Assembly (NCBI GenBank): GCA_947475525.1
Contig: CANJMI010000014.1
Location: forward strand, 1-64,000
Length of the DNA: 64,000 nucleotides
Direction: 5' to 3'
From: Polyangiaceae bacterium
GTDB lineage: Bacteria > Myxococcota_A > Polyangia > Polyangiales > Polyangiaceae
Numbering within the stretch: the stretch's first letter is position 1; each line of letters opens with the position of its first letter. The notes beneath the pieces were generated by a model that worked only from the letters and a program-made list of their open reading frames with translations, made no database searches and was not told where the DNA came from. Shown piece after piece: positions 4,948-53,164 of the stretch. The position numbers and the translations under genes were made by a program.

Positions 4948-6453
4948 ATGGCCCTCCACGACGCTACGAGCCTCCGTCGACGCCGCTTTTTGCGCGGCCT
5001 CGGCGCGTGCCTGGCATTGCCGTTTTTGGACAGCTTGATGCCGCGCGGGGCGAAGGCCGGCCCCGACACGAAGACCCAGCGACTCCTCTACTACTATGTG
5101 CCGAACGGCTTCGACGCAGGCGAGGTGGAGGAAGGCGTGAACGTGCCTCCGGCCGCGTGGACCGACATCAAGACGACGCTCGCGGGCGGCGCGCTCTCGA
5201 CACACGCGACCCTGCCCCGTTTTTTGAAACCTCTCTCCAAATTTAGCAAAAATTTGCTGATTGTGAGCGGGCTCGACAACGCGCCCGGGAACTACGACAA
5301 AAACAAAGACGAGGACAGCAACGGCGCACACTTCCAACAGACGGCGAGTTTTCTCACTTGCAAACACGTCGACAAGGCACCCTTTAGCGCCGGCCAATCG
5401 ATCGACCAAGTGGTCGCCAAGTCCTTTGGCTACAAGACCCCGCACCGCTCGCTGCAGCTCGGACTTCATCCAGGCGACGCGAACAGCGCCTGCGGCTCCG
5501 GCTGGCCCTGCGCCTACCTCGGGTTCATCTCGTGGGCCGACGCGAAGACGCCGCTCGCGCAGTTGAACGATCCTTACGAAGTTTTCACGACGCTCTTCGC
5601 GACGAACGGCGGCGCCGTCTCGAAGGCGGAGTTCGAGCGTCGCAGAGCCCGAAAATTAAAGGTGCTGGACGTCGTGAAAGAGGACGCGAAATCCCTGCTC
5701 ACGAAACTTGGCGCGAACGATCGCCACAAGCTCGACCAGTACTTGACTGCAGTTAACGAAGCCGAGGACAAAGCGAACGCGATGGCGACGCCCGCCAGCT
5801 GCGACGAGTACACGCTCAACTCAGCCGAGTGGACGTACCCACAAAAACTCGATCTGATGGCCGACCTCATGGCGCTCGCCTTCAAATGCGATCTGACGCG
5901 CGTGATCACGTTCATGCGCCACGCGGGCGGCAGCTCGTTCGGGGACGCCTACGATTGGGTTGAGCACGAGGGCAAAGCCTTGACCGCGCCGAAGCATCAC
6001 TACAGCCACTGGCAATCGCCGAATCAAGATGAGCCTGGCTCGCTAGCGGAAAAAGTTCAGGGCTATCGGGCGAAGGTCGAGGCGATCAACACCTGGGAAC
6101 TCGAGCGCTTCGCCTACCTGCTCGCGAAGCTCGATGAGTTCGAGGAGCCGAACGGTAAGACCGTGCTCGACAACTCGATTGTGATGTTCGGAAGCGAGCT
6201 TGGCGACCCCAACCTGCACCTAGCGAACGACCTACCCATTGTGATCGCGGGCTCTGGCGGCGGCGTGCTCGTGACCAACCGGCACTTGACCTACAACGCT
6301 CAGGTGCCGATGGGGCAGACGAAGAGCGACACCTTCGCCGATCTCCACCTCGCGCTCGCCGCGAGCGTAGGCGTGCCCTTGCCCCAGCCGATGGAAAACG
6401 GCGTGCTCTTCGGCGAGGACGGGACGAAGGCACTCACCGGACTCGGCGCGTGA
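4948..6453 (+). CDS. DUF1552 family secreted protein
   Basis: A 501-residue protein that starts 3 bp after the DUF1592-type gene, so the two are co-transcribed. The N-terminus carries a run of arginines followed by F-L-R-G-L-G and a hydrophobic stretch ending around AKA (residue 37), which resembles a twin-arginine export signal. The start of the mature part (RLLYYYVPNGFD), the ASFLTC segment and the late IVMFGSELGDPNLH segment are typical of DUF1552 proteins, which share a sulfatase/alkaline-phosphatase-like appearance but have no established activity. Export of a folded protein by Tat fits a metal-binding enzyme. The substrate is unknown. Confidence 0.85.
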   Translation: MALHDATSLRRRRFLRGLGACLALPFLDSLMPRGAKAGPDTKTQRLLYYYVPNGFDAGEVEEGVNVPPAAWTDIKTTLAGGALSTHATLPRFLKPLSKFSKNLLIVSGLDNAPGNYDKNKDEDSNGAHFQQTASFLTCKHVDKAPFSAGQSIDQVVAKSFGYKTPHRSLQLGLHPGDANSACGSGWPCAYLGFISWADAKTPLAQLNDPYEVFTTLFATNGGAVSKAEFERRRARKLKVLDVVKEDAKSLLTKLGANDRHKLDQYLTAVNEAEDKANAMATPASCDEYTLNSAEWTYPQKLDLMADLMALAFKCDLTRVITFMRHAGGSSFGDAYDWVEHEGKALTAPKHHYSHWQSPNQDEPGSLAEKVQGYRAKVEAINTWELERFAYLLAKLDEFEEPNGKTVLDNSIVMFGSELGDPNLHLANDLPIVIAGSGGGVLVTNRHLTYNAQVPMGQTKSDTFADLHLALAASVGVPLPQPMENGVLFGEDGTKALTGLGA

Positions 6454-6506: not shown

Positions 6507-8093
6507 ATGCACTCGCGTACCCATCGACTCCACACCGCCACCATCGCATCCGTCTTCGCTTGTGCCGTCATCGCAGGGAGCTTCGGTGCTTGCTCATCGG
6601 ACGTCGACACCGGGAGCGCGACGACCACGAGCGCCGCGGGTGGCAGTGGAGGTCAGGGCGGCGACCCTGGGGTCGGCAATGGTGGGAGCGGCGGTGGCAG
6701 TGGAGGGAGCGCCCCGGCGGCGTTGACCCCCGAGACGTTCTGCAGCGAGTATGCGAGCGCCATCTGTACCGCAACCGACGGCTGCAATTGTCCCGCGGTG
6801 GACGGCGCTGCCCCCTGCGTCGAGAAGACCACCAACAACTGCGAGCAACAGCTCGCGTCGTTGATCGGCGCGATCGCGCTTGGCGACCTCGTGTTCGACG
6901 AGGCGAGTGCGCGCGCGTGCGTCGATGGGGCTGCAGCAACGCTGAAGACGTGCGTCCTGCCCACCCAGTTCAACAAGCCACCCGGCTGCGGATTACAGTT
7001 CCAAAACAAGGCGACGCTCGGCGCGGCCTGCTCGCAATTCGGCCTTGGCCTTCTCTGCGCGGCCGGACTCGGAAGGTGCGACATCAACACCGGCAAGTGC
7101 GAGCCAATCGGCAAAGAGGGCGAAGCGTGTGCAGGCTCGGAGCATGACTGCGCCGCTGAGCTCATCTGCAGCAGCACAGGAACGTGCGAAAAACCCGCGG
7201 CGCTTGGGGAACCCTGCAATTTACCGTGGGAATGCGCAAGCAAGGTGTGCGCCTTCGAGACCAACACCTGCATCCCGCCGAAACCGAAAGCCGCCGGTTG
7301 CAACGAAGCAGCAGAGTGCGCCGACGGCCTCGGTTGCATCGCCTCCAAGTGTGACACCGCCCTCGCCTTGGGCGAAGGTTGCCAACCGAGCGAGTGCGGT
7401 GCGAACAACATTTGTTTCGACACGCCCGGGCTGAAGACGTGCGGCGCCAAAGCGAAGGCCGGCGAGCCTTGCCAAAGTCCCGACGACTGCGCACAAGGGA
7501 CCGACTGCGATTTCGCAAAATTCCCCAACATGACGTGCGTGACGACGCCGAGCCTCGGTGAAGCGTGTGTCAACGCGTGCGCGGGTGGCGCGACCTGCAA
7601 CGGGAGCATCTGCATCACCCCACCGAAGCTCAACGAGGCGTGCGCGTTTGGCGGGGAAAAACCATGCGCCGACGGACTTGGCTGCGGGATGGGCGATATC
7701 TGTGTCCTAGGCGGCAAACCCGGTGAAGTGTGCACCGGGACCAATCAGGCGTGCGCGCTCGGCGCCGTGTGCGATTACACGACCAATCCTCAGACATGCA
7801 AAACGCTCGGCGCCCTCGGGGACCTCTGCGGCAACGACGACGCATTCTGCAAGGCGGAATTCTTCTGTGACTTCCAGAGCAACACGTGTTTGGCCCCACT
7901 CGCTCTAGGCAAAGCTTGCATGTCACCACGCGCTTGCGAAGCCGGTTCGTACTGCCAGTTCAACGTGAACGGGGGGACCTGCGCGACGCTGCCGAGCATG
8001 CTCGACGACAGCTGCGTGGACATCTGCGGTGGCAACCTTCGTTGCGCCGGCCCCTCGGGAACCTGCGAGCTGGGCGCCTGCGTGGTTCGCTGA
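6507..8093 (+). CDS. cysteine-rich lipoprotein with repeated EGF-like spacing
   Basis: The frame opens at a GTG overlapping the DUF1552 stop, but the ATG at 6507 is the better start. It gives a clean signal peptide ending in a Gly-Ala-Cys lipobox, followed by a Ser/Gly linker (about residues 40-70). The remaining sequence is a ladder of short cysteine modules (for example CSSTGTCEKPAALGEPC, CDINTGKCEPIGKEG), giving several dozen cysteines in 528 residues. Such proteins are common and functionally unassigned in Polyangiales. The spacing suggests many disulfides and a stiff surface stalk. The 53-bp distance to the DUF1552 gene suggests it is the third gene of that operon. Confidence 0.75.
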   Translation: MHSRTHRLHTATIASVFACAVIAGSFGACSSDVDTGSATTTSAAGGSGGQGGDPGVGNGGSGGGSGGSAPAALTPETFCSEYASAICTATDGCNCPAVDGAAPCVEKTTNNCEQQLASLIGAIALGDLVFDEASARACVDGAAATLKTCVLPTQFNKPPGCGLQFQNKATLGAACSQFGLGLLCAAGLGRCDINTGKCEPIGKEGEACAGSEHDCAAELICSSTGTCEKPAALGEPCNLPWECASKVCAFETNTCIPPKPKAAGCNEAAECADGLGCIASKCDTALALGEGCQPSECGANNICFDTPGLKTCGAKAKAGEPCQSPDDCAQGTDCDFAKFPNMTCVTTPSLGEACVNACAGGATCNGSICITPPKLNEACAFGGEKPCADGLGCGMGDICVLGGKPGEVCTGTNQACALGAVCDYTTNPQTCKTLGALGDLCGNDDAFCKAEFFCDFQSNTCLAPLALGKACMSPRACEAGSYCQFNVNGGTCATLPSMLDDSCVDICGGNLRCAGPSGTCELGACVVR

Positions 8094-45640: not shown

Positions 45641-47224
45641 TCAAGGGAAAAAAGAACCGGCACAGCGAAAGCCCGTGCCGGCGCTGCGGTCCGACGGGCT
45701 GACTCTGACGCGGATAATGGAGAGGAAGCTACGCGGGTCGTCGAGGGCCCAGCAACCGCCACGAATGCCGCGGCCTTCTCCTTCATTGTAGGCAGATGAA
45801 GTCCATTCCCATACATTGCCTGACATATCGGATAGGCCAAAAGGAGAGTTGCCCGCGGGGAAAGATGCGACGGCGCAGGTGGAGTTGCGCATGCCTTTGC
45901 CTTTACGGTTCCAGCACAGTTGGCCTGCCGGTTCGGCGTCGCCCCACGGGTACATGCGACCATCGGTCCCGAACGCCGCGTACTCCCACTCCTCCTCGGT
46001 GGGTAGCCGCTGTCCTTGCGCCTCGCAGTAGGCCGTCGCCTGCTTCCAGTCCACACAGTTGATGGGGAGGTTGCCGCGTTCGGCGAAGCCAGCATTGCAA
46101 TAACTACCATTGGCCAACGCCGCCGTGCATTTGCCGCTCTTGACGCAGGTCGCGTAGGCCGCGGTCGTCACCTCGGTCGTGTCCATGCAGAAGGCGGCGA
46201 CTTCAGCGAAGTCGGTCGCTCGTGCCGCGTAGTCATCGACTCTCATCACCAACGCTGCGGCAGGTACCAAACTCATCCCTTCGCGGCACTTCGGTGGTGG
46301 TGTCGCCGCGAACTGCCAGCCGCCAGCACCCACCACGTCTCGCACAACCCAATGTTTGTCCTTTAAGTTGTTCGCTTGGACCACCGCCTTGGTGGGCTCA
46401 TCGGCCGAACGCAGCTTCACAATACCTTCGCGCTTGTCATCTTTGCGGAGCCAAGCGTTTTGCGGTTCCGTCGACTCCGAAATCGCCAGCTCAACGCTGA
46501 CGTAGTCCTTTTCGCTAAAGTCCTTGTTGTAGTTCTTCACGACCTTGACGACCACGCGCCGGCCGTCCGCGCCGTCGAGCATCTCGGTGCAGCGCAGATC
46601 GACGGACAGCTTGTCGTTGTCGCGGCGTACACACACCTCCGCGACTTTGCCATCACCCAAGGTGGTCTTCGCGACGCAGCGCCCGTCCTTCGCGTGAAGC
46701 GTGCCCGCGCAGGCTGCGAGGTCGAGCGATTTTATGTCGGCCTTGCAGCTTTTTTGACGACTCTTGAGGAGCGCCAGTTGCTCTTTGTTCTCATCGGGAG
46801 CAAAGAGCAGCTTCGCCCGTTCGTCGCACCCGTCGGCGGCAAAATACTGCCGCACAAGCGCTGCGGCAGCGGTGCAGCCCGCGTCGAGTTTGAACGCGTC
46901 AGCACTCTTCGTGAGGCAATAATCGACGGCATCTGGCCCCTCTTTCGCCGCGCGCCCGTGAGCGACACAAGGACCGTCGCCCGTGAGCTTTTTGCAGGTA
47001 TCTTGCTCGATGAACGCGTGTTTTTGAGGGCAACTCGGCGCTTGGCCGACCAGCACCTCGTCCTCTTTTGTGTCGAGCACCGCGTTGCGGGTGGGGCAGC
47101 TACCTTCACCGACGAAGGCCAGAACGGCCTTCTCCGTGCCGCTTTTGCATCCCACAATTCCCATGACGGCGACCGCGGGCAGCAGCAGCCGCGCGCGGCG
47201 TAGCACAAGCCTGACTTTTTTCAT
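45641..47224 (-). CDS. FGE/sulfatase-modifying-factor-like lipoprotein
   Basis: The ATG at 47224 starts a signal peptide with lipobox G-I-V-G-C (Cys26), giving a 527-residue lipoprotein. Residues 27-320 are rich in paired cysteines and have no domain I can name. The C-terminal about 190 residues are an FGE-sulfatase domain (C-type lectin-like fold): FCMDTTEVTTAAYATCV, INCVDWKQATAYCEAQGQRL, PTEEEWEYAAFG, GLSDMSGNVWEWT and FLSIIRVRVSPSDRS. The last region has only one cysteine where formylglycine-generating enzymes have a catalytic pair, so it is probably a binding or non-FGE paralogue. It faces away from the crotonase gene. Confidence 0.8.
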   Translation of the reverse strand: MKKVRLVLRRARLLLPAVAVMGIVGCKSGTEKAVLAFVGEGSCPTRNAVLDTKEDEVLVGQAPSCPQKHAFIEQDTCKKLTGDGPCVAHGRAAKEGPDAVDYCLTKSADAFKLDAGCTAAAALVRQYFAADGCDERAKLLFAPDENKEQLALLKSRQKSCKADIKSLDLAACAGTLHAKDGRCVAKTTLGDGKVAEVCVRRDNDKLSVDLRCTEMLDGADGRRVVVKVVKNYNKDFSEKDYVSVELAISESTEPQNAWLRKDDKREGIVKLRSADEPTKAVVQANNLKDKHWVVRDVVGAGGWQFAATPPPKCREGMSLVPAAALVMRVDDYAARATDFAEVAAFCMDTTEVTTAAYATCVKSGKCTAALANGSYCNAGFAERGNLPINCVDWKQATAYCEAQGQRLPTEEEWEYAAFGTDGRMYPWGDAEPAGQLCWNRKGKGMRNSTCAVASFPAGNSPFGLSDMSGNVWEWTSSAYNEGEGRGIRGGCWALDDPRSFLSIIRVRVSPSDRSAGTGFRCAGSFFP

Positions 47225-47488
47225 GAGCGCGGAGGTTAACGCCCGCCCCCATAATGACAAGCCTCAACTGCATCGACAAGCCGCCGACGTCGATCGACCG
47301 ACCGGCTGTCGAAACATGCGCCATGCGGCTCTCGCCTTCCGCCGTCACCAAGCGGAACCGCCTAGCCGAACGGCTCCCCGAAGCACTCGCCCGCATGGCA
47401 CGCCGCGTCGAGAGCGGACCCGCCCCGCGTCGAAACTCCCTGCTATTTTGCTAGTGAACCTTCGATTCACCGCGCTAGGGTTCGGACC
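47225..47488. promoter_or_regulatory. 264-bp divergent region between FGE-like and crotonase genes
   Basis: Both flanking genes read outward, so their promoters must lie here. Short frames that cross it (for example from 47322) read as chance. No clear -35/-10 pair stands out; the sequence just before the crotonase start has a T-rich word (ctattttgc, near 47443). Confidence 0.35.
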
Positions 47489-48220: not shown

Positions 48221-49444
48221 TCACGGTTCCGGCCAAGGCTCTTCCACAATCTCGAAGCGCCCGAAATCGAAAGGCAACCGCGGCGCATTTTCGACCTTGA
48301 CCAGACGCTCACGGATTCCTTTTTTTCGGAGCTGGGTCACGCGGTGGTAGCAAAATGGCATGTTGCCCCGGCGGCCTAGGGTCGTGTGCGCCGTCCACGA
48401 GCAGCCCGCACGGCACGTGTCGGCGTAATAGCAAGTCTTGCAGAAGCCCCAGAGCTCATCGGCGGTCCGGTCCCGCGCGAAGCGAATCACCTCCGAGTGC
48501 TCCCACAGCTCCTCGATCGACATCGTGCGTACGTTGCCGCCTGCGTAGGGGCCGGTCGGTAGCGTCGGGCACGCCTTTACGGTTCCATCCGACTCGATGC
48601 CGAGCGCGAAAATGCCGGCTTGGCATCCGCGCCAATGTGCCTCGCGGCCGAGTGGTCGCGAGCGAAGGACCTGCTCGTGCGGTCCAAAATAGCCGATGTT
48701 GTTGTTGGCGACGATGTTGAACGGAATGCCGCCTTCGTGCTCGCGGACGGCATCCAATTGGATCCCCGCGAGCGTGTCGATGATCGGCACGATTTGCCAG
48801 GGATCGATGATCCACTCGGGGTGATCGGCCGCGCGTCCGAGAGGACCGGTCAGCTGGACTTGCCATGACTGCACGCCGTGATCGCGGAGCAGCCGGGCCG
48901 TCTCGGGCAGAAACTCGCAGTTGAGTTTGTTTATTTGAGTGTTCGCCGAGGGGATGAGTCCAACCTCGCGCGCGGCATCGAGCGCCCGCAGCGCCGATTG
49001 GTGACTGCCGAGGTTGCCACGCAGGCGATCGTGCGCCCGCGCGGGGCCGTCGATCGATACCCCGAGACCTTGAAGCCCCGCATCCCGAAAACGCTTCGCG
49101 AGCTCGGGTGTGAACGCGCGCCCGCCGGTCTGCATGGTCACGCGCATGCCGAGGTCGGCGATGAACCGGATGAGGTCCTCGCAATCCGCCCGCAGGTACG
49201 CTTCACCGCCGATAAGCGTCACTTCCCGGCTCCCAAGCCGCGCGAGCCCCCGGGCGACTTCAAACATCTCCTCGGTGCCAAGCTCGCTCGGACGTGCCTT
49301 CCCCGACCGCGAACCGCAGTGCTGACAGGGCTGGTCACACCTCATCGTGATCTCCCAAACAACATACACCGGCACCGCGCGACCTTCATCGCCGGGGCGA
49401 ACCGCACGAACAGGGATGGGCAGGGAAATGAGCTCACTCGACAT
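48221..49444 (-). CDS. radical SAM/SPASM domain protein, candidate peptide maturase
   Basis: A 407-residue protein. The 4Fe-4S cluster motif is Cys36-x3-Cys40-x2-Cys43 (RCDQPCQHCGSR), followed by a typical SAM-binding strand, VTLIGGEAYL, and VTMQTGGRAF. The C-terminal SPASM domain has the cysteines expected for auxiliary clusters: Cys274, Cys292, then CKTCYYADTCRAGC (335, 338, 344, 348) and Cys365. SPASM enzymes typically modify ribosomally made peptides or other proteins (thioether, C-C bond or epimer formation). The divergent neighbour at 49516 is a small protein with a Gly-rich tail, a plausible substrate. No transporter or RiPP recognition domain lies next to it. Confidence 0.85.
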   Translation of the reverse strand: MSSELISLPIPVRAVRPGDEGRAVPVYVVWEITMRCDQPCQHCGSRSGKARPSELGTEEMFEVARGLARLGSREVTLIGGEAYLRADCEDLIRFIADLGMRVTMQTGGRAFTPELAKRFRDAGLQGLGVSIDGPARAHDRLRGNLGSHQSALRALDAAREVGLIPSANTQINKLNCEFLPETARLLRDHGVQSWQVQLTGPLGRAADHPEWIIDPWQIVPIIDTLAGIQLDAVREHEGGIPFNIVANNNIGYFGPHEQVLRSRPLGREAHWRGCQAGIFALGIESDGTVKACPTLPTGPYAGGNVRTMSIEELWEHSEVIRFARDRTADELWGFCKTCYYADTCRAGCSWTAHTTLGRRGNMPFCYHRVTQLRKKGIRERLVKVENAPRLPFDFGRFEIVEEPWPEP

Positions 49445-49515
49445 TCAGCCACACTACGGTCATTCAATAGAAATTTCAATTGACGCAGTTTGTTAGCGAG
49501 GAGTTCAATCAATAG
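49445..49515. promoter_or_regulatory. AT-rich divergent promoter between radical SAM and small protein genes
   Basis: This 71-bp region is markedly more AT-rich than its flanks. A TTGACG word (49480-49485) and a TTCAAT word about 18 bp later could form a plus-strand promoter, but the TTCAAT lies very close to the start codon. A gaggag ribosome-binding site (49498-49503) precedes the ATG at 49516. A shared control of enzyme and substrate would be expected from this arrangement. Confidence 0.4.
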
Positions 49516-49902
49516 ATGTCCTCACACGCGCTTATCGCCTGTCCCTCATGCAACTGCCACGCGAACCAGGCTGAGGTCACCTGCCCTCACTGCGGCCAAG
49601 CGCTCCGCCGAGCCAATGGCTCCATCGAACGGACCGCGGCGTCGGTCATGCTCGGCCTCGCGGTTTCGATCGCGGCGCCGGCCACGCTTACCGGCTGCGA
49701 CGGTGAGACGGCGGACGACACGACGAGCAGCATGAATGTCTCGAGCAGCACCTATCCGGATGTCGTCTCAGCTTACGGCATCAGCGTGACCGGCGGCATG
49801 AGCGTGACCACCGGCGAAGACGGCGTTGGCGGAGCTGGCGGCGTTGGCGGCGTTGGCGGCGCTGGCGGCGTTGGCGGCGCTGGCGGCGCTGGCGGCAAGT
49901 GA
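49516..49902 (+). CDS. small zinc-ribbon, lipobox and Gly-repeat protein; candidate maturase substrate
   Basis: A 128-residue protein with three parts. Residues 7-28 form a zinc-ribbon-like motif, CPSCNC plus CPHCG. Residues 41-61 are a hydrophobic stretch ending in A-T-L-T-G-C, which looks like a lipobox (Cys61) but lies 40 residues further in than usual. After the cysteine come a Ser/Thr-rich segment with the motif STYPDVVSAYGISVTGG (78-94, Tyr80 and Tyr87) and a C-terminal Gly/Val/Ala repeat (103-127). The position divergent to the radical SAM/SPASM gene suggests that the Tyr/Thr/Gly region is its modified substrate. I know no named family for the whole protein. Confidence 0.7.
   Translation: MSSHALIACPSCNCHANQAEVTCPHCGQALRRANGSIERTAASVMLGLAVSIAAPATLTGCDGETADDTTSSMNVSSSTYPDVVSAYGISVTGGMSVTTGEDGVGGAGGVGGVGGAGGVGGAGGAGGK
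49822..49893 (+). repeat. eight 9-bp units encoding a Gly-Val/Ala-Gly tail
   Basis: Eight consecutive 9-bp units (variants of ggcgttggc and ggcgctggc, one ggagctggc) encode G-V-G or G-A-G triplets at the end of the small protein. Variants alternate, so the array is not a simple recent expansion. The repeat keeps the frame when copy number changes. Confidence 0.9.
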
Positions 49903-49927
49903 TGCGCGCGCTCGTGTGACGCCCGAG

Positions 49928-52900
49928 TCAACGCGTCGGCCGCGTGCGTGTTGCGAACCACACGCGGTTTTTCTCCATCGCGCGGGCTTGCCCCGTCGGT
50001 GCGTGACGCGTGCAAGTGGCGAGCTCGTCCGAGCCTTCGGCCGCGCCCCAACGCGCCTCGGCGCAGTCGTTCGGATTGTATGCGAGTTCGAGCGAGCGTT
50101 GCCGAGCGACCACATCACCCACCGTAAGCTTGAAGCGTGAACCGTCCGACCGTGGGTACTCGAAGCTGAGCTCGGCTACGCGCGAGGTGATGCGCTCACG
50201 CAGGGCCTGGAGGCGCGCCTCCAATTCGGCCGGGGCCGAGGGCAAACCGAAGCGTGCGGGCTGACGCTGCACGGCCTGCGGAAAGCCCATCACGGTGTCG
50301 AGCGCGATCAGGAGGCGCATGTCGCGCGAGGGCGTGGAGTAATCCTCCCACGCGCCGCTGGTCTCGAAGAGCGAGTGACCGTGAGGCATCTCGATAGCCG
50401 AGCGGTGCGCACGCATGTACTCCTGCCCATTCTCGATGCTCGTCACACGGGCTTTGAGTTGCTCGAAGAGCGCCGCCAGCAACGCCTCGAGCGCATCATT
50501 CGCCGCGAGCGGGCGCGGATTGATCAGGTTCTCGAGGGTGTCGTACCAGGCGTCTTTGTCGAGCTCGTACGGCTCGAGGCTCCACGGCGTAAACCCGGGG
50601 CGGTCCTCCGCGATGCGTTCGTTGGCGATCGACGTGACCTTGCCGCCCTTCATCCACACCGGGCGAAAATGCTTGAAGCCCGCCCCCGCCTCGGTCGTGT
50701 CGGGCGAGTAGAGAAAGGTGCCGCGCCAGAAACGACGGCGACCGATCGTGCCATCGGGCTGCGCATCCGCGCCAATCAACATGCCGTGGGTCGTCAAACC
50801 TTGGGGGACCCAGCCGGCGAGCACGTAACCGTGACCGTAAGGGTCCGCGAACACCGAGCCTGGCGTCAAGGCGTCGCGCGTGAGAGGGACCGAGTAATGG
50901 TCGGACACCGAGTCACGCGGACTCGTCCTGCCCGTACCTGAGTGCACGCCGTTCGCGAGATTCGAACGGGCGAAGGTCGCGAACTTTTCGGTCGCGTCGC
51001 GGCCTTCGGGTTGCGCGCTCACATTCGAGTGGACCTCCTTGTCGCAGTAAGGCGCCTCGCCTTTTCGGCCGCGGTTGCAGTGGCGGTAGGCGAACGGCAA
51101 CCCGAGCTTCCATGAGAAGTAAGCACGGAGAAAATAGGGCAGATCCGCGCAATCCGGCTCGAGGGCGATGCGCTGCTCCTCGGCGACGCCGAAGTGGCCA
51201 GAGAGGAGGTTGTGCTCGCCGTCGCGGAGGAGCGACTCGAGGTTTTTCCACGTGCGATCATCGAACGGGTACGCGAAGAGTTGTTCGACGAACACCCCGT
51301 AAAGATTCTCGAACGCGGGCGTCCACTTCTGGCGCACCGACCATGCGCTCGCGGCACCACGTTCGCGCCCCGCTGCTCGCTCGTGCACACGGACAACCTG
51401 ACACGCGTGCGAAAGTGGACCATCGGCGAGCCTCACCGTCCACTCACCCACCGCCGGACTTGTGACCTCCGCCCAGTAACCGTAAGGCGGACCACCCGTG
51501 CGATGAAGTGGAGGCGCGATGCGCGCGCCATCCGGCCCGTCGAAGACAAGCTCAACCGAGCCGAGGTCGCGGCCGCTTGCCACGATCACACGGAGCGGCT
51601 GACCTGGGTGTGCACGCCCGGGCACGACGAGCAGCATGACGTCCGCATGCGACTCAGCCTCCTCGCACGCGCCACGCGACTCCGTAGGGGCCGGCGGACG
51701 CAGCGTCGCGACGCCCGCGAGCGAAGGACCGGGACTCGTCCCGAGGATCGTGATGCGCCCAAGCCGTTCGAGAAAGGATTTTCGCGAGGTCCCGCCGCCG
51801 AGCCGCAAATCGCTGACTTGTACGCGATCGACCGAGACGAGGGTCTCGCCACCGCACGTCGGAGAGCCAGGTTCGAGGTACTCGGCGAACGCGTGCATCA
51901 CCATCGGCGTGCCCTCAGCGGAGCGGCCAAGGTAGAGCATGATGTGTCCGGGGAAGCTTAGGAGCACAACGCCTCGCTCGGCCGCCGCATCGATCAGCGC
52001 GAGCCGCTGCGTCTCTTCCGTCACCGTCGCAAGATCGATGGACATCGTTCCGGCGCGAGCCTGCGCGCCGCTATGGCGAGGCAGCGAAAGGCCAAACGAC
52101 GCGAACACCGACGAGAGAAACTCGGAGCAATCTCGCCCGCCGCCACGCCCTCCCCAACCGTAAGGAGTATCGAGATACCGAAAGGCCTCTTCGAGCAACG
52201 CGCGGCGGGTAAGCGGCCGCAGGGTCGTGGCATCCTCGAGCATCGAGCCTGTCCCAAATCCAGTCGCGGTCGCCACCGCGGGGCGCACGTTGTCGCTCGC
52301 CGCGAGGAAGGTGTTCGCCGGGACGGTCACCGCCGGCGAGCCGAACCCGAGGGAGGTCTCCGTGCGCACTCGAAGTCGCGGCGCACTCGCGAACGTGGCG
52401 CGCAAATCGGGTGGAACGGGCGGCGAGAGCGGAGCCTGCGCGTCGATCCAGCCGAGGGTGGCGCGGCTGCGGACGAGGGTCATCCCGTTCGGAAAGCTCG
52501 CGAGGACGCTGAGCGCTTCCTGAGGTCGCAGCGAGCTGCAGAGGTTTCGATCGAAGGCCTCTTGCACGTCGCCCGATTTGTAGAGGCCGGAACCGTCAGG
52601 CCCGCAGTGGAGCGGCACCAGGGCGAGCGCCACGCGAAGCTCCCCGCCGAGCGCGGACGCAAGAAGCGGCGGCAGCTCGGTGAGGGGTGCGAACGGCCCC
52701 GCGTCGGGTTTTTCACCACCGCGCGTGACGAGCTCGCCGTGCACGATGCGGGTCCGCAAATAGGCGAGCCGCGCGTTGACTTCCGTCAATAAACGAGCCG
52801 AGTCAACGGCGTGAGTAAGGTCGAATGGGGCCAGCGCATCGGTGTCGGGCTCACGTGCGTCCCGCGCAAGAAACGCCGCGTCATGAGCGCGAATCGCAGC

Positions 52901-53164
52901 GATCGAGAGGACTTCGTCGTCGGGGTGCGGTTGGCGAGCGACCCAATAGGCCGCCGTGCGCTGAAGCTCGGTGACGCCGGGCAAAGGATTGGGCGCGCTC
53001 GCGTGGCTCGGACAGCCGGGCTTGTCGAGCGGCGCTCCCTGACCTGACGCGTTTGGCGGGGGACTCGAAGGCTTCCCGCAGCTCACCGCCCCGACGACGG
53101 CGAGCACGAGGAGAGAGTGCCAATGACAACGATCGCGTCTCGTAACTAGGGTCATCGGCTTCAC
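49928..53164 (-). CDS. NlpC/P60 lipoprotein with SH3-like N-terminus and long C-terminal extension
   Basis: A 1078-residue protein (GTG start; ATG at 53155 possible) with lipobox A-V-S-C (Cys29). Residues 60-310 resemble the N-terminal and SH3-like region of YkfC-type enzymes. The NlpC/P60 domain follows at about 320-430, with catalytic Cys346 in GGRDCSEFLSS, His407 in FPGHIMLYLG and a third polar residue probably His424. These enzymes cut peptide bonds in peptidoglycan stems, usually D-gamma-Glu to diaminopimelate. The remaining 640 residues have no match I recognise, which is far longer than the family norm. It follows the thioredoxin-fusion gene by 69 bp. Confidence 0.8.
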   Translation of the reverse strand: MKPMTLVTRRDRCHWHSLLVLAVVGAVSCGKPSSPPPNASGQGAPLDKPGCPSHASAPNPLPGVTELQRTAAYWVARQPHPDDEVLSIAAIRAHDAAFLARDAREPDTDALAPFDLTHAVDSARLLTEVNARLAYLRTRIVHGELVTRGGEKPDAGPFAPLTELPPLLASALGGELRVALALVPLHCGPDGSGLYKSGDVQEAFDRNLCSSLRPQEALSVLASFPNGMTLVRSRATLGWIDAQAPLSPPVPPDLRATFASAPRLRVRTETSLGFGSPAVTVPANTFLAASDNVRPAVATATGFGTGSMLEDATTLRPLTRRALLEEAFRYLDTPYGWGGRGGGRDCSEFLSSVFASFGLSLPRHSGAQARAGTMSIDLATVTEETQRLALIDAAAERGVVLLSFPGHIMLYLGRSAEGTPMVMHAFAEYLEPGSPTCGGETLVSVDRVQVSDLRLGGGTSRKSFLERLGRITILGTSPGPSLAGVATLRPPAPTESRGACEEAESHADVMLLVVPGRAHPGQPLRVIVASGRDLGSVELVFDGPDGARIAPPLHRTGGPPYGYWAEVTSPAVGEWTVRLADGPLSHACQVVRVHERAAGRERGAASAWSVRQKWTPAFENLYGVFVEQLFAYPFDDRTWKNLESLLRDGEHNLLSGHFGVAEEQRIALEPDCADLPYFLRAYFSWKLGLPFAYRHCNRGRKGEAPYCDKEVHSNVSAQPEGRDATEKFATFARSNLANGVHSGTGRTSPRDSVSDHYSVPLTRDALTPGSVFADPYGHGYVLAGWVPQGLTTHGMLIGADAQPDGTIGRRRFWRGTFLYSPDTTEAGAGFKHFRPVWMKGGKVTSIANERIAEDRPGFTPWSLEPYELDKDAWYDTLENLINPRPLAANDALEALLAALFEQLKARVTSIENGQEYMRAHRSAIEMPHGHSLFETSGAWEDYSTPSRDMRLLIALDTVMGFPQAVQRQPARFGLPSAPAELEARLQALRERITSRVAELSFEYPRSDGSRFKLTVGDVVARQRSLELAYNPNDCAEARWGAAEGSDELATCTRHAPTGQARAMEKNRVWFATRTRPTR

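Follow-up and report, generated by a model that had tools for sequence, protein, structure and literature searches.

A radical SAM enzyme of the splicease branch and a predicted zinc-ribbon lipoprotein substrate in Myxococcota

A divergent pair of genes from a Polyangiaceae bacterium raises the question of whether a radical SAM/SPASM enzyme modifies the small lipoprotein encoded beside it, and by what chemistry. The pair lies in positions 1 to 64,000 of contig CANJMI010000014.1 (assembly GCA_947475525.1), a 64-kb stretch which we refer to throughout as the window: the enzyme, of 407 amino acid residues, occupies 48221..49444 on the minus strand, and a protein of 128 residues, which we call a ribbon-lipoprotein, occupies 49516..49902 on the plus strand. 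Between them is an intergenic region of 71 bp (49445..49515) that is 61% AT, compared with 34% for the window; in these respects (coordinates, lengths, divergent orientation, and an AT-rich spacer) an earlier sequence-only reading of the locus agrees fully with the open reading frame (ORF) data. We consider it likely that a splicease-type enzyme acts on Xaa-Tyr-Gly (XYG) sites of ribbon-lipoproteins, that the ribbon docks the substrate, that signal peptidase II matures it, and that the likeliest use of the product is protease inhibition.

The enzyme belongs, on the evidence of family models and conserved cysteines, to the branch of the splicease PlpX. Pfam recognizes a Radical_SAM domain (E 1.9e-21) and a SPASM domain (PF13186, residues 274-339, E 3.2e-8), and the features characteristic of splicease-branch radical SAM/SPASM enzymes are both present: the CxxxCxxC cluster motif, here CDQPCQHC (C36, C40, C43; 49316..49339, minus strand), and a SPASM region with seven cysteines (C274, C292, C335, C338, C344, C348, and C365; 48350..48625, minus strand), all of them invariant in an alignment of 20 sequences including that of the window, in agreement with the earlier assignment to the radical SAM/SPASM enzymes. 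The 69 NCBIfam models that match are led by TIGR03913, a GDL-peptide maturase model (423.3 bits), and TIGR04103, a nif11-class peptide maturase model (413.5 bits), each more than 260 bits above any other, the third reaching 153. The AlphaFold model of the enzyme has a mean predicted local distance difference test score (pLDDT) of 85.3 and is similar to PqqE, SkfB, BlsE, and SuiB; a PDB sequence search returned 4 distinct sequences (BlsE twice, SkfB, and PqqE). The gene is single copy in its genome (5.15 Mb in 59 contigs), where the only other hit is weak (E 3.7e-8) and covers just part of the protein (residues 30-171).

Both the splicing chemistry and this branch of enzymes are already known. 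We take PlpX to be a member of TIGR04103, in keeping with its placement in IPR026482. That placement, together with precursors of the Nif11 or nitrile-hydratase type, is given in PMC11002830; PlpX excises tyramine from Xaa-Tyr-Gly and reconnects the chain as an alpha-ketoamide (PMC11002830, PMC10533398, PMC10373908), the net reaction joining the remaining Tyr carbonyl to the carbonyl of X (PMC10533398); and, besides 27 others already characterised, the same group reports 939 predicted splicease systems (PMC10533398). As a stand-in for the Pleurocapsa PlpX in our comparisons we used the Nostoc nif11-class peptide radical SAM maturase 3 (TIGR04103), which scores above the cut-off of that model, is 46% identical to the window's enzyme over 94% of it, and adjoins a Nif11 precursor ending in IALYGLPPELF.

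The small protein opens with a zinc ribbon, C9-x2-C12-x10-C23-P-x-C26 (49540..49593, plus strand), followed by a hydrophobic segment (residues 41-60; 49636..49695, plus strand) and a lipobox, LTGC, whose C61 (49696..49698, plus strand) is predicted to carry the lipid anchor and to mark the signal peptidase II cut. This is the arrangement of a bacterial lipoprotein, a hydrophobic stretch and then a lipobox Cys, with a signal peptide that comes unusually late; an n-region of 40 residues is unusual for a lipoprotein. Across an alignment of 18 sequences (window included) nothing replaces the start Met, any of the ribbon's four cysteines, the proline that follows C23, or C61, and because of this invariance the ribbon and the late lipobox, both recognized in the sequence-only reading, are more than chance; one further invariant Gly is uninformative. 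Only the ribbon is modeled confidently by AlphaFold (mean pLDDT 81-90 for residues 1-30, mostly <60 for the remainder, with a low-confidence helix at residues 41-53). On the small protein every Pfam and NCBIfam match stays below its cut-off, and TIGR03913, which matched through its own ribbon region in 3 of 10 substrates (E 0.012-0.11), was equaled or bettered there by unrelated ribbon models. In the segment YPDVVSAYG, which had been singled out earlier, it is the terminal Tyr-Gly that stands: G88 is kept throughout 15 close relatives and Y87 in nearly all of them, making A86-Y87-G88 (49771..49779, plus strand) the predicted splice site, while Y80 is not conserved in the alignment and is ruled out as a target. 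The Gly-rich tail noted at the same time is real in the window's protein but is not conserved; Asp/Ala- or Pro-rich tails replace it in relatives, which rules it out as a target as well.

Do the two genes travel together? We examined two sets of loci: set 1, the first 80 enzyme matches of an order-wide list, including the window and a near copy, with flanks of up to 5 kb; and set 2, 60 enzyme matches outside the order, searched for ribbon-lipoproteins with the same profile as set 1. A ribbon-lipoprotein ORF lies within 2.5 kb of the enzyme in 69 of the 80 loci of set 1 (114 such ORFs near, 1 farther out) and in 43 of the 60 loci of set 2 (63 near, 4 far); on inspection, 5 of the 17 set 2 loci that lack a profile neighbor show a ribbon and YG, and 1 shows LYGVP only. 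Regardless of position, 107 of 183 genomes of the order contain both partners (enzyme at E <=1e-60, lipoprotein profile at E <=1e-6), 11 the enzyme only, 1 the lipoprotein only (G126), and 64 neither (Fisher p = 1.7e-36, the kinship of the genomes being ignored). The families thus co-occur, and the outcome that would have spoken against an enzyme-substrate pair, a small protein family not conserved with the enzyme, is absent. In the surroundings of a clade of five enzymes (L200, L202, L205, L209, and L210) neither a ribbon-lipoprotein nor a convincing XYG protein was seen. We also observed a splicease-branch gene, 62% identical to that of the window, in a contig titled 'Bifidobacterium breve' metagenome-assembled genome (L079, CALQBK020000010.1), which is probably a mis-binned or mislabelled Myxococcota contig.

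The second line of evidence is the Tyr-Gly itself. We define the mature part of each protein as that after the lipobox Cys, count tyrosines in mature parts of up to 150 residues, and compare them with composition-preserving shuffles. A Cys was present within the searched stretch of 112 of the 114 set 1 neighbors, and YG follows it in 110 of these 112 mature parts and in 57 of 60 from set 2. In set 1, 241 of 256 tyrosines precede Gly (shuffles 57.6 +/- 6.3, maximum 80), or 239 of 252 when the window and its near copy are left out, and the leaders of the same proteins, 6261 residues in all, contain just 11 tyrosines, none of them in a YG; in set 2 the count is 75 of 128 (shuffles 16.9 +/- 3.8), and in both sets together after dereplication 100 of 130 (shuffles 24.0 +/- 4.2). 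For 12 other residues tested in both sets the fraction before Gly is 0.06-0.31. Proteins carry from none to five YG sites (n=105: 0 in 2, 1 in 24, 2 in 39, 3 in 24, 4 in 13, and 5 in 3), X is mostly A, L, R, P, M, D, V, E, or I, and the flanks follow G-G-V-x-[PA]-X-Y-G-[AG]-P-P, close to RPLYGLPI and the tag GGPIRPLYGLPI, both in PMC10533398, and to the Nostoc Nif11 end ALYGLPPELF. The XYG partner expected of a PlpXY-type splicease system is therefore present in the window as A86-Y87-G88, with YG kept in relatives. Tyr-Gly is retained while its surroundings vary, rather than varying freely; together with the co-occurrence, this comparative evidence supports the predicted enzyme-substrate relation. 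The loci and genomes with one partner missing would suit chance neighbors, an ordinary radical SAM enzyme and an unrelated small lipoprotein; co-occurrence and XYG conservation contradict this explanation, which we regard as extremely improbable.

Two observations concern what lies around these sites. Many mature parts of set 2 (L198, L199, L201, L203, L204, L207, L213, L221, and others) have an Asp-rich repeat, DxDGDGY...DCDD...HPGA.E..GDG.DSNCDG, after XYG, which presumably resembles MopE-type metal-binding motifs. At L147 the C-terminus of the splicease-branch enzyme itself is KYGAPPMRK, so that the XYG tail is on the enzyme; an ORF about 200 bp downstream ends alike, and the DNA of the two ends (6216-6245 and 6721-6750) is similar. 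The genome of L147 (G118) is among the 11 with the enzyme and no detected ribbon-lipoprotein.

Substrates need not adjoin the enzyme. Some genomes have more than 20 ribbon-lipoprotein matches, among them G005, G007, and G006 with 27, 26, and 22 for 3, 3, and 4 enzyme matches, respectively. Of 20 ribbon-lipoprotein genes sampled away from known enzyme matches, none has an enzyme-like ORF within about 0.8 kb on its flanks, yet all 20 encode YG after the Cys, and 47 of their 50 tyrosines precede Gly (8.4 +/- 2.5 when shuffled). The window's genome, by comparison, has one strong profile match, the neighbor itself, among the 150 of 330 candidates scored, plus two weak ones (E 2.6e-4 and 3.6e-4) in ORFs of 607 and 391 residues; its one clear predicted substrate is the neighbor, at A86-Y87-G88.

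If the pair is an enzyme and its substrate, is it a conventional ribosomally synthesized and post-translationally modified peptide (RiPP) system? Among ORFs of 50-700 residues within 1.2 kb of the enzyme at 140 loci, clustering (largest 14 groups) revealed no third family in more than 7 loci, and the only one of these groups not made up of close relatives is protein-kinase-like (5 loci). The 140 loci thus show no widely conserved candidate for the hallmarks of a conventional RiPP cluster, namely a RiPP recognition element (RRE) and a dedicated peptidase or transporter, and the comparisons support the earlier proposal, made because neither an RRE nor a transporter was seen, of lipoprotein modification in place of a conventional RiPP. 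What they add to that proposal is the splicease-branch placement of the enzyme, X-Tyr-Gly as the target, the similar ribbon fused to the enzyme in some relatives, and the many lipoproteins in trans of some genomes. We rejected an RRE elsewhere in the genome as a dedicated partner, the only PqqD protein over its Pfam cut-off being part of a lasso-peptide-like cluster at about 236,000-239,200 of another stretch of the window's genome (G000:C1, L166). By eye from translations, that cluster also has nucleotidyltransferase-, kinase-, and asparagine-synthase-like ORFs and a small precursor-like ORF.

Comparison with known systems places the pair close to PlpX/PlpY and to an Azospirillum locus, but identical to neither. 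Like PlpX (as represented by Nostoc), the window's system has an enzyme of the same branch and a similarly flanked XYG, which in Nostoc lies in a Nif11 precursor; unlike PlpX/PlpY, it has no Nif11 or NHLP (nitrile-hydratase-type) leader and no small partner gene that we could find, and its predicted substrate is a lipoprotein with a zinc ribbon at the N-terminus. In Azospirillum, a protein above the cut-off of TIGR03913, the best model for the window's enzyme, adjoins a DUF1843 peptide with RPYGPAMVEAISTGDL; the systems share an XYG in one partner peptide and a similar ribbon, but the Azospirillum enzyme carries its ribbon at the C-terminus and its partner peptides are small and soluble, whereas in the window it is the predicted substrate that bears the ribbon, at its N-terminus, along with a lipobox. 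A Myxococcota variant in genome G335 (L262) likewise pairs a splicease-branch enzyme with neighboring XYG proteins whose N-termini are signal-like, but its ribbon is C-terminal on the enzyme and absent from both neighbors. Our literature search, which drew on partial texts and did not extend to the main survey (Scott et al. 2022), found no description of a zinc-ribbon or lipoprotein splicease substrate, nor, within the same limits, of the ribbon-lipoprotein architecture, a ribbon on either partner, a system with no PlpY-like partner, or many substrates in trans.

A number of points weigh against a splicease acting on ribbon-lipoproteins. i) The enzyme misses both curated equivalog cut-offs (423.3 bits against 591.75 for TIGR03913; 413.5 bits against 725 for TIGR04103); ii) PlpX activity was shown together with the RRE protein PlpY (PMC11002830), and no PlpY-like RRE partner was found near the enzyme at the 140 loci, where a very divergent one could escape; iii) no profile neighbor was found at 11 of 80 loci in set 1 and 17 of 60 in set 2, and 11 of the 183 genomes have an enzyme and no detected ribbon-lipoprotein; iv) the lipoprotein profile (A2) was built from genes beside the enzyme, kinship of the genomes is uncorrected, and 10 (enzyme) or the best 35 (lipoprotein) first-look candidates were scored per genome, so that either partner may be missed owing to the source of the profile and the limited candidates; v) the lipobox is strict in 40 and loose in 98 of 112 set 1 proteins; vi) YG is missing from 2 of 112 mature parts (one cut by a contig end) and from 3 of 60; vii) in set 2, 53 of 128 tyrosines do not precede Gly; viii) SAYGISV of the window lacks the proline that 181 of 246 sites have at the second position after the Gly; and ix) splicing, docking, and function are predictions from sequence comparison. 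The first two of these points, and the varied chemistry of SPASM maturases (PMC8326336), would suit another radical reaction at the XYG tyrosine, for example a Tyr crosslink or a mycofactocin-type oxidative decarboxylation, with a product that is no ketoamide. We regard this as unlikely, in view of the lead of TIGR03913 and TIGR04103 over every other model, a site and flanks like those of a splicease site (PMC10533398), and a conserved element which, as for PlpX, is Tyr-Gly after a free residue.

How might the enzyme find its substrates? The distribution of the ribbon suggests an answer. None of the 93 enzyme ORFs in the 80 loci of set 1 is fused to a ribbon, but ribbons occur at the C-terminus of the Azospirillum and Aureibacter enzymes, which adjoin DUF1843 peptides without one; at the N-terminus of the Tropicibacter enzyme; and at the C-terminus of Myxococcota enzyme L262, whose two XYG neighbors have signal-like N-termini and no ribbon. 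Thus three of the four ribbon-bearing enzymes adjoin XYG proteins that lack a ribbon. On the substrate-ribbon profile the fused ribbons score 25.4 (Azospirillum), 9.2 (Aureibacter), 21.7 (Tropicibacter), and 22.5 bits (L262); substrates score 13.6 (5th percentile) to 47.3 bits (95th percentile) on their own profile, so that Aureibacter falls below that range; and among 79 other four-cysteine ORFs, five at 6.1 to 21.1 bits look like missed ribbon-lipoproteins, the best of those that do not scoring 4.1 bits. In several genomes (G003, G241, G052, and G077) alignments of the fused-ribbon enzymes continue past the stop codon of an ordinary enzyme and reach the ribbon that the following gene encodes. 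In a tree of 158 enzymes made by a quick method, the four ribbon-bearers amount to two label changes among relatives with ribbon-substrates, the Tropicibacter and L262 rows being long-branched. The searches favored such enzymes, and a count of four therefore says nothing about frequency.

Since the ribbon can sit on the enzyme, beside XYG proteins without one, we infer that it docks the substrate. The alternative is that the ribbon is no docking leader, serving precursor solubility or a zinc-dependent export switch while the enzyme recognizes XYG alone. Ribbons are often structural in role. Short XYG tags placed in foreign proteins were modified by PlpXY in some cases, though most FtsZ tags tried were not accepted (PMC10533398). 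Given the similar ribbons on enzymes of four relatives, three of which adjoin XYG proteins without one, and their two places in the tree (with the reservations as to method and branch length just stated), we think it rather unlikely that the ribbon plays no part in docking.

The DUF1843 (PF08898) peptides at L169 and L171 look like splicease substrates in their own right. YG is found at the corresponding place in 1 of 2 Azospirillum copies and 1 of 3 Aureibacter copies (PYG in both), the second Azospirillum copy having YM there and AYG elsewhere; other copies are without YG at that place. The 'GDL motif' of TIGR03913 went by the older name Y-x10-GDL; in one Azospirillum peptide the Y of that name is the tyrosine of a PYG site, which suggests what the motif is. 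DUF1843 was rejected as the usual partner in the phylum, with matches in 4 of 329 genomes, 3 of the 4 inside ORFs of more than 1600 residues; PMC10994174 describes it as a domain of unknown function that recurs within operons.

For the splicease pathway that we favor, the steps would be as follows. The enzyme would act in the cytosol at X-Tyr-Gly of ribbon-lipoproteins, with the N-terminal ribbon as a docking leader that replaces the leader and RRE of known splicease systems; tyramine would be excised (a loss of C8H9NO, about 135 Da), leaving an alpha-keto-beta-amino acid unit with X on the acyl side of an X-CO-CO-NH-Gly ketoamide; and after export and lipidation at C61, the cut by signal peptidase II would remove the ribbon, so that this peptidase would double as leader peptidase. 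The product would be a lipid-anchored alpha-ketoamide, perhaps a protease inhibitor, whose likeliest use may be at the cell envelope, against serine or cysteine proteases; different P1 groups would follow from the variety of residues at X. It is possible, if somewhat doubtful, that the product is instead a reactive surface tag, its ketoamide reacting with groups on partner proteins or on the matrix, or else a lipoprotein that handles metals: as many as five XYG sites in one protein and dissimilar mature parts could suit a general tag, and many set 2 mature parts have the Asp-rich DxDxDG repeats. The residues at X (A, L, R, P, M, D, V, E, and I), however, look like a spread of P1 specificities, and spliceotide products from other work are reported as protease inhibitors (PMC11117315 and PMC10373908).

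The surroundings of the pair can be described briefly. A convergent NlpC/P60 ORF of 1078 residues (49928-53164) has its 3′ end 26 bp beyond the end of the small gene, and a terminator-like hairpin that follows the substrate gene lies inside this 3′ end (49945..49974, plus strand; consensus scan only). A consensus scan of 49300-50000 found no sigma-70-type promoter match. Two genes from the pair, a 539-residue protein (45641-47260, minus strand) has a formylglycine-generating-enzyme-type (FGE-sulfatase) domain.

More tentatively, Myxococcota may have a general, RiPP-independent modification of lipoproteins, in which one or a few spliceases would install ketoamides at the X-Tyr-Gly sites of up to more than 20 envelope lipoproteins per genome, dissimilar in their mature parts, using a ribbon as a portable docking domain, on the substrate or, once relocated, on the enzyme, and signal peptidase II as leader peptidase, to display lipid-anchored electrophiles that differ in P1 residue and act as protease inhibitors. 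If so, tyramine splicing would reach beyond peptides to a standing repertoire of envelope lipoproteins in a large bacterial phylum, and a zinc ribbon able to sit on either partner would be a new recognition module for a radical SAM maturase; the predicted two-gene cassettes could put ketoamides into membrane-anchored proteins.

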